Assembly (NCBI RefSeq): GCF_947495625.1
Contig: NZ_CANLZW010000002.1
Location: 62,001 to 126,000 of the forward strand
Direction of reading: 5' to 3'
Length of the DNA: 64,000 nt
Source: an uncultured Cocleimonas sp.
GTDB taxonomy: Bacteria > Pseudomonadota > Gammaproteobacteria > Thiotrichales > Thiotrichaceae
Shown here: in pieces, positions 42,784 to 44,536 of the stretch
How positions within the stretch are numbered: position 1 is the stretch's first letter
Layout of the letters: the number at the start of each line of letters is the position of its first letter
Translations under genes and position numbers: made by a program
Notes under the pieces: generated by a model
The model's input: only the letters and a program-made list of their open reading frames with translations
What the model was told of the DNA's origin: nothing
The model's database searches: none

Positions 42784-43494
42784 ATGGAAGGTGCGATAGA
42801 AGCAATAAAGGCAAGTTTCTCGCTTGATGCCGGATTGCTGGTTCATATTGCAACCTTAGGTTATGTGCTTGGTTTTCTTCTAAAAAATCAACTGCTTTTG
42901 CGCTTTCTGGTTTTAGGATCGACGGTTCTGTATATCGTTTATTACTACATCTACCCTGCTCAACCCTTATGGGCAGCTATTATGGGGAGTGTGCTACTAA
43001 TCATCGCCAATATCATCGGCACCCTTTCCATCATCTATGATCGGCTACCGATTAAAATTGATCCTAAGCATTTGCCCATTTACCATAGTCTTCAAGGAAT
43101 ACGACCCGGTGAATTTAGACGATTAATCAAAGTAGCAGAGTATCAAACCACCGAAGGGAAGTTTACCTTAACCCATGAAAACGAAGCGCCAAGCCATTTG
43201 TATTATTTAGAAAAAGGCACGGGAGAAGCTGAAAAGAAAGGAAGCACCTTTACCATTCCAAAGGGACGTTTTGTCGGAGAAATTAGTTTTATTCTAGGAG
43301 GAAATGCGACAGCCACAGTGAACCTTGCAAAAGGCAGTACCTTTCTGTCGTGGGAGAAAACTGTACTCAATAAACTTCTGGAGAAACATCCCAACTTACA
43401 ACGCGCATTCGAAGCAAGAATCGCTCGTGATATGGCCAGCAAACTCGCCTCGGCAAATTCCATCAAAATTGATAATAGTGTAGGACTCAACTAG
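42784..43494 (+). CDS. Membrane protein with Popeye/cyclic-nucleotide-binding-like domain
   Basis: The 236-residue protein has three transmembrane helices in the first 85 residues. A cytoplasmic domain follows with LPIYHSLQGIRPGEFRRLIK near 98-117 and a jelly-roll pattern (FTLTHENEAPSHLYYLEKG, then GRFVGEISFILGG). The layout is that of Popeye-domain proteins, which bind cAMP in animals; bacterial members are known but little studied. A GGAGG ribosome binding site lies five bases before the start. Confidence 0.8.
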   Translation: MEGAIEAIKASFSLDAGLLVHIATLGYVLGFLLKNQLLLRFLVLGSTVLYIVYYYIYPAQPLWAAIMGSVLLIIANIIGTLSIIYDRLPIKIDPKHLPIYHSLQGIRPGEFRRLIKVAEYQTTEGKFTLTHENEAPSHLYYLEKGTGEAEKKGSTFTIPKGRFVGEISFILGGNATATVNLAKGSTFLSWEKTVLNKLLEKHPNLQRAFEARIARDMASKLASANSIKIDNSVGLN

Positions 43495-43604: not shown

Positions 43605-43731
43605 AAAAATAATGTGCCCCTTCACCGGGGTAAGTGAAAGGGCACTTGGGAGACTGGTAGTTATTTTATTTTTATATTTACTAAACTACTCTTCGCCTCA
43701 GGGGCTTGCTAAAAATTCATTGTTTTTATAC
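43605..43731 (-). ncRNA. Candidate small RNA, tandem copy 1
   Basis: A minus-strand unit of about 127 nt is predicted from a -24/-12 promoter to a terminator hairpin. It begins near GTATAAAAACAATGAATTTT, contains GAGGCG and a GTAGTT/AACTAC stem, and ends in a 12-bp stem (GTGCCCTTTCAC with GTGAAGGGGCAC) at 43614-43645 followed by ATTATTTTT. Copy 2 has the same order of elements with compensating changes in two stems. The transcript ends are inferred. Confidence 0.6.
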
Positions 43732-43741
43732 TTAACTATAA

Positions 43742-43757
43742 TGCAATGACGATGCCA
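43742..43757 (-). promoter_or_regulatory. Sigma-54-type -24/-12 promoter, sRNA copy 1
   Basis: The minus strand reads TGGCATCGTCATTGCA. GG and GC are exactly placed as in the sigma-54 consensus TGGCAC-N5-TTGCA. A weak sigma-70 reading (TCGTCA, 16 bases, TATAAA) is also possible. Confidence 0.6.
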
Positions 43758-43837
43758 ACTTTTCTTAAATAACGCTATCTTATTGTTTTAAATGAGTTTA
43801 TTAATTTTGTTAGTATTTTTACATCATTATCTTCATC

Positions 43838-43890
43838 GTCACTAGCTGACAATTTCTCTATGTTTGTGTCATACATCCACATTTTGTCAG
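43838..43890. promoter_or_regulatory. Candidate enhancer-binding sites, sRNA copy 1
   Basis: GTCA-N5-TGAC at 43838-43850 lies 81 bp upstream of the -24 element. Further TGTCA words follow at fixed offsets of 16 and 35 bp. The same three sites occur at the same spacing before copy 2. TGTC words recall PilR- and GlrR-type sites, but the regulator is unknown. Confidence 0.5.
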
Positions 43891-44049
43891 TCTTGTGTCA
43901 TTGATTTGGTTATTTATTCGATCATGATTGACTCATTAATAGTGGTAGAGCAAATTCAGCGTATTCAAAATGATCAGCTAGCGAGAAAAACTAAGTAACA
44001 ATTCTATGCAATAAGAAGCATCAGGGGGTATTGCGAAAGATCAACGACA

Positions 44050-44081
44050 AGTCACCCCCCTACTTTGAGGCGTATTTTTTA
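44050..44081 (+). repeat. Dispersed C6 repeat, short form
   Basis: AGTCACCCCCCTACTTTGAGG then CGTATTTTTT. It lies between the two tandem sRNA-like units. Confidence 0.92.
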
Positions 44082-44167
44082 AATATGCTGTTACTTAATC
44101 ATTTATCCGTCATGTGGTTTACGAATTAATAATATATAACGAAAGATAGCGAAGAAAACGCATAAGG

Positions 44168-44305
44168 TAGAAATAAGTGTGCCCCGACGTTGGGCAACGA
44201 CAGGGCACTGGTGAGGCTAAGTTAATCTATCCTTGATGTATTAACTCGTTAACGCCTCTCGGTTTGGGTTTGTTTCAGAATTTTATAAATTCTTTGTTTT
44301 TATAG
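44168..44305 (-). ncRNA. Candidate small RNA, tandem copy 2
   Basis: A minus-strand unit of about 138 nt. It begins near ACTATAAAAACAAAGAATTT, has an AGAATTT/AAATTCT hairpin and a GAGGC...GTTAA / TTAAC...GCCTC stem, and ends in a 14-bp stem with one mismatch (44179-44208, GTGCCC... GGGGCAC) followed by ACTTATTT. The stems match those of copy 1 in position while their bases differ. The ends are inferred. Confidence 0.6.
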
Positions 44306-44315
44306 TCGTTGCTAA

Positions 44316-44331
44316 TGCAATGACAATGCCA
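44316..44331 (-). promoter_or_regulatory. Sigma-54-type -24/-12 promoter, sRNA copy 2
   Basis: The minus strand reads TGGCATTGTCATTGCA, with the -24 GG and -12 GC at the exact sigma-54 spacing. A sigma-70 alternative (TTGTCA, 16 bases, TATAAA) overlaps it. Confidence 0.6.
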
Positions 44332-44412
44332 CTTACCCCTAAAACACGCTAACCACCTGATATATATAAATAATAAATTAAAAAAGGCGTTTATATTACA
44401 ACTGTATTAGCA

Positions 44413-44465
44413 GTCACTTATTGACACTTTTGTAAGGTATGTGACACATATTCGGCCATTGTCAG
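44413..44465. promoter_or_regulatory. Candidate enhancer-binding sites, sRNA copy 2
   Basis: GTCA-N5-TGAC at 44413-44425 lies 82 bp upstream of the -24 element. TGACA and TGTCAG words follow at offsets of 16 and 35 bp, as in copy 1. Confidence 0.5.
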
Positions 44466-44536
44466 TTGTTTGTTAATGACAAAACATTTAAACGCATAGT
44501 AGTTAACAGTATGGCAGCTGATGACTTCGATAAAGA

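Follow-up and report, generated by a model that had tools for sequence, protein, structure and literature searches.

Two tandem units on the minus strand in the genome of an uncultured Cocleimonas sp., a marine sulfur bacterium, lying within a 64,000-nucleotide stretch of DNA (the window), are best read as small-RNA genes with sigma-54-type promoters, as an earlier note on this DNA had proposed. The two units, U1 and U2, appear to be paralogues in an undescribed family of predicted regulatory RNAs of ~125-200 nt, confined as sampled to the host's family, in which promoter, enhancers and structure are kept with compensatory changes. The whole is best explained by an RNA family driven by PilR and sigma-54 along with pilA, its members bound by Hfq and probably acting by base pairing; we put the probability of this reading at about 0.7. 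The parts of the two units are as follows.

43606 to 43731, minus strand: U1 small-RNA gene; start at ~43731 and end at ~43606 predicted, with +1 from the sigma-54 spacing
43742 to 43757, minus strand: U1 sigma-54 promoter TGGCATCGTCATTGCA (-24/-12), from the sequence; the same element is found in all aligned family members
43837 to 43900, minus strand: U1 enhancer cluster, comprising the palindrome TGTCAGCTAGTGACG (43851-43837) and TGACA boxes at 43871, 43889 and 43900; pilA has the same architecture
43701 to 43709, minus strand: U1 putative seed GCAAGCCCC, unpaired and conserved (85-98% per column in 75 distinct members)
43650 to 43699, minus strand: U1 stem-loop 1/2, GAGGC/GUCUC and GUAGUU/AACUAC, presenting a AAUAAAAAUAAAA-type loop, from covariation
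43606 to 43645, minus strand: U1 terminator hairpin GUGCCCUUUCAC-UUACCCCG-GUGAAGGGGCAC with U-rich end, from folding; 12/12 pairs covary in the family
44171 to 44305, minus strand: U2 small-RNA gene, a divergent paralogue; start at ~44305 predicted, from covariance model, fold and a compensatory pair
44316 to 44331, minus strand: U2 sigma-54 promoter TGGCATTGTCATTGCA (-24/-12), from the sequence
44412 to 44481, minus strand: U2 enhancer cluster, comprising TGTCAATAAGTGACT (44426-44412) and boxes at 44446, 44464 and 44481

The coordinates, strand and spacing given in the earlier note hold for both units, which are offset by ~574 bp. The region noted as gene-free has no open reading frame of at least 60 aa in the stretch flanked by the genes that end at 43494 and 44537. 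From the start of the GTCA-N5-TGAC palindrome to the downstream -24 T the distance is 94 bp in U1 and 95 bp in U2, and extra TGTCA/TGACA boxes are located at -114/-115 and -132/-133 (U1/U2), matching distances that the note had also seen. Both promoters read TGGCAT-N5-TTGCA with the correct -24/-12 spacing (GG-N10-GC). Each unit runs ~125-135 nt from its start to a strong hairpin and T-rich tail, and folds 4-5 SD better than dinucleotide shuffles (U1 z=-4.05, U2 z=-5.0). The first search pattern, TGTC-N7-GAC followed by a TGGC-N7-TTGC promoter, occurs at three places in the 4.6-Mb host genome, which are U1, U2 and a third copy of the gene; the reversed control gave 0. The units of enhancer, promoter and RNA are therefore not due to chance, given the stability of the folds and the confinement of the pattern to RNA genes. 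The third copy, absent from the earlier note, was located by genome search on another contig (G000:C27, L002), downstream of a glyS-like gene and with its own enhancers and promoter.

The internal stems, noted previously as kept despite base changes, covary across the family alignment. In an alignment of 18 sequences paired cells amount to 95%, compared with 80% in shuffles, and double compensatory changes occur at 17/23 pairs, a number reached in 0/500 shuffles. Among 75 distinct members such changes are found at all 23 pairs, a count that leans toward pairing because this alignment was fitted to the covariance model. Covariation and folding are thus those of a discrete structured RNA with a terminator; in several members the U tract of the terminator is imperfect. 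The best-conserved primary sequence lies in two unpaired elements, GCAAGCCCC before the first stem and an A-rich (AAN-rich) loop, AAUAAAAAUAAAA or AAUAACAAUAAAA. U1 scores 113 bits with the covariance model (E=1.4e-25) and U2 29.7 bits (E=3.4e-5); U2 is without the GCAAGCCCC and AAUAAAAA loop sequences and keeps the architecture. We note that the hairpin loop of U2 (44238-44226) reads CAAGGAU, resembling a CsrA/RsmA site, at the position where its paralogues have the AAN-rich loop. Comparison with Cocleimonas flava found the U1 region 97% identical by DNA search and the U1 RNA unchanged (123/123), while 3 of 136 bases of the U2 RNA differ. Two of these three, 44255 G>A and 44216 C>T, form a compensatory pair that converts G-C to A-U. 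The spacers from enhancer to promoter are only 85-90% identical between the same genomes.

A DNA search recovered relatives from the same genus and from two other genera. A covariance model, the kind of search the earlier note had called for, was built on 18 copies and, within the host's family (GTDB-type Thiotrichaceae), matches 51/63 genomes and 8/8 genera; a matching genome has between one and six copies. In a class-level sample 3/369 genomes match, all of them from the host's own family; the order-level sample consisted of that family only. Carriers named by a pattern scan are Cocleimonas, MAGs labelled Leucothrix mucor, Thiothrix species and Thiotrichaceae MAGs. Several genomes have two or three units in tandem behind one promoter. 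In the three-unit arrays (L022, L021, L110 and L050) the last unit is shortened to GAGAC-UAAG...GUC-GCC; it lacks the A-rich loop and keeps GCAAGCCCC or GCAAACCCC together with a C-rich terminator loop. One family RNA lies on a record titled Aquificaceae MAG 28 (L068, QOAQ01000052.1) that resembles a contig of G059, a member of the Thiotrichaceae family, which points to a probable mislabelling of the record or a mixed bin. In several genomes of the Cocleimonas group the glyS-side copy is adjoined by a gene for an entericidin-like small lipoprotein and then by an SseB-like gene (L002:1973-2125; L015, L014).

Some copies lie just downstream of glyS or ruvA, and an unrelated repeat sits between U1 and U2, either of which could be taken to mean that the copies are fragments of 3'UTRs or leaders, or an inserted repeat element. 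We consider this very improbable: every copy comes with a promoter and a terminator of its own, both conserved, and the neighbouring genes change from copy to copy whereas promoter and RNA do not. The repeat itself, AGTCACCCCCCTACTTTGAGGCG... at 44049-44089, is interspersed, with ~38 further matches genome-wide, resembles a REP-type element and is identical at 41/41 positions in Cocleimonas flava.

The -24/-12 element is present in every member that could be aligned with its upstream DNA; some members, for example in g8, have scattered boxes and not the full palindrome. All promoter-bearing pilA loci inspected carry the same boxes, with palindromes CGTCATAAAGTGACA in the host genome and TGTCACTTTCTGACA in one Thiothrix-group genome. 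A relaxed pattern (GTCAN5TGAC with a sigma-54 promoter, any base being allowed before the TGC at -12) is found at four places in the host genome, which are the three RNA genes and pilA only; the reversed control gave 1. Across 13 genomes it is found at 29 places. Position and translation assign 18 of them to RNA genes and 8 to pilA promoters (26/29 RNA or pilA), leaving 3 others. The reversed control for these genomes gave 3 in all, a figure also given as 3 on each genome set. The mean number of TGTCA/TGACA boxes upstream is 3.5 for the RNAs and 3.9 for pilA, compared with 0.27 for other TGGC-N7-NYGC sites. The RNA genes thus have the enhancer-promoter architecture of pilA.

The earlier note had guessed at an activator of the PilR or GlrR type, and the shared enhancers of pilA favour the first of these. 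The host genome encodes nine strong bEBPs, of which a PilR-like one adjoins a kinase with a Pfam 6TM_PilS domain. PilS is present in 60/63 genomes, and in G014 and G032 pilS lies ~3 kb ahead of a site-bearing pilA. PilR is an established sigma-54 activator of pilA, active when PilA is low (PMC6058289). Since the RNA genes and pilA have common enhancers, PilS is near-universal and PilR is known at pilA, PilS-PilR is most likely the activator of the RNA genes together with pilA, the co-occurrence implying that PilR would bind at both. No bEBP gene linked to the RNA loci, in the manner of crcZ and cbrB, was seen in neighbourhoods of ~18 kb. NtrC was rejected as the activator, its known site being unlike the TGTCR-N5-YGACA enhancers present here. 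The GlrR part of the guess did not stand: the GlrR consensus is TGTC-N10-GACA (PMC8745638), whereas the spacing here is N7, and no bEBP of the host passes the curated (equivalog) cut-off for GlrR.

With nine strong bEBPs in the host, another NtrC-family regulator with a TGTCA motif, such as the NifA-like L127 or the orphan-type L129, L131, L132 and L133, might activate the RNA genes and control pilA as well. The recognition helix of the NifA-like protein is similar, NifA sites start with TGT and several regulators are possible at pilA. We nevertheless think it quite unlikely that PilR is not the activator: PilR is already established at pilA with sigma-54 (PMC6058289), pilS is near-universal here and sits beside pilA in G014 and G032, and the NtrC and GlrR consensuses fail to match.

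Hfq is encoded in 60/63 genomes. The 51 predicted transcripts contain the Hfq/CrcZ-type motif AANAANAA 188 times, compared with 34.6 ± 6.7 in dinucleotide shuffles, an enrichment of ~5-fold which is good evidence, though not proof, for binding at the distal face of Hfq. As in CrcZ, there are multiple such motifs per RNA; U2 has one only. The element GCAAGCCCC is unpaired and nearly invariant and in this behaves like a seed. The exact 9-mer GGGGCUUGC has no target at a ribosome-binding site in the host genome or at the Cocleimonas flava sites examined. The exact 9-mer GGGGCTTGC occurs at 13 places in the host genome, of which two are RNA genes and none of the 11 others is at a ribosome-binding site (exact matches only). 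This weighs against base pairing. We infer Hfq binding and action by base pairing from these features, and the main rival is that the RNAs serve as Hfq decoys.

In genus g7 (L116, L119, L120, L121 and L147) a second predicted RNA of ~200 nt, unrelated in sequence, lies upstream of ftsE, ahead of the ftsEX-mutL-miaA-hfq region. It has the same type of enhancer and sigma-54 promoter, contains AANAANAA 7-10 times and carries a terminator-like hairpin that varies.

As decoys of the CrcZ/CrcY/CrcX type, AAN-rich RNAs made by PilR and sigma-54 would occupy Hfq and relieve or redirect Hfq-dependent repression, and GCAAGCCCC would be a structural or protein-binding element and not a seed. The 5-fold enrichment of AANAANAA, with sites in leader and loop alike, is consistent with this idea, as are the several gene copies per genome, the multi-unit transcripts, the second AAN-rich family upstream of ftsEX in g7 and the lack of a seed target. 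However, there are usually just 2-3 motif islands per RNA and a single motif in U2, conservation of the 9-nt GCAAGCCCC goes beyond the need of a decoy, and CrcZ itself gave no Rfam match. On balance we regard a decoy role as possible but somewhat unlikely, and prefer base pairing by Hfq-bound RNAs.

In the preferred mechanism the pilin-sensing kinase PilS would switch on the response regulator PilR, which would bind the TGTCR-N5-YGACA enhancers and drive RNA polymerase-sigma-54 at both pilA and the RNA genes. The RNAs would therefore be made when PilA is low. Their AAN repeats would bind the distal face of Hfq, and the unpaired, nearly invariant GCAAGCCCC would most likely pair with target mRNAs.

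PilS-PilR is widely conserved and is thought to sense the level of pilin and possibly attachment of the pilus. The switches of the RNA genes match that of pilA, the main type IV pilus gene, which suggests that this pilus-sensing system may also command a set of regulatory RNAs. If true, an RNA arm is added to PilS-PilR. A covariance model is ready, the regulon (RNA genes and pilA) is defined and there are culturable hosts (Cocleimonas flava, Thiothrix), making a connection of pili with post-transcriptional control directly testable. A bolder version, which we rate as unlikely, is that PilS-PilR controls family-wide essentially one protein gene, pilA, and a battery of Hfq-binding decoy RNAs (the U1/U2 family and the g7 ftsEX RNA), with pilus status resetting Hfq capacity.

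Known sigma-54-dependent multi-copy regulatory RNAs include Qrr, CrcZ/Y/X and GlmY/GlmZ. The earlier note saw no likeness of U1 and U2 to any of them, and Rfam agrees: the window has no match at gathering, ten family loci have no relevant match at E<=0.5-1, and the CrcZ, Qrr and GlmY/GlmZ models are among those without a match to either. CrcZ/CrcY/CrcX (Pseudomonadaceae, CbrB/sigma-54) resemble the U1/U2 family in their bEBP-controlled sigma-54 promoter, in the occurrence of several copies in a genome and in multiple AANAANAA (Hfq-Crc) motifs; the U1/U2 RNAs are shorter, combine a covarying stem with the nearly invariant GCAAGCCCC, and have enhancers matching those of pilA. Like the family, Qrr1-5 (Vibrio, LuxO/sigma-54) are ~100-nt multi-copy sigma-54-dependent RNAs with a highly conserved unpaired core and a terminator, but sequence and structure differ and the enhancer TGTCR-N5-YGACA is not a LuxO-type site. 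GlmY/GlmZ (Enterobacteria, GlrR=QseF/sigma-54) share the sigma-54 promoter and enhancers of the TGTC...GACA type; those of U1 and U2 are TGTC-N7-GACA in contrast to TGTC-N10-GACA for GlrR (PMC8745638), and the RNA is unrelated. The PilS-PilR/pilA regulon of P. aeruginosa, Geobacter and Dichelobacter has in common a PilS with a 6TM domain, a sigma-54 pilA promoter and TGTC boxes, but no small RNA like U1/U2 is described as a PilR target in the literature searched. That search, which most subscription papers lay outside, gave no relevant report on Thiothrix small RNAs or on PilR-controlled small RNAs; an antisense RNA of Synechocystis named PilR (PMC5924778) is an unrelated clash of names. Sigma-54-dependent multi-copy RNAs as such are already known, and what is new here is a family absent from Rfam and its unexpected regulatory home.
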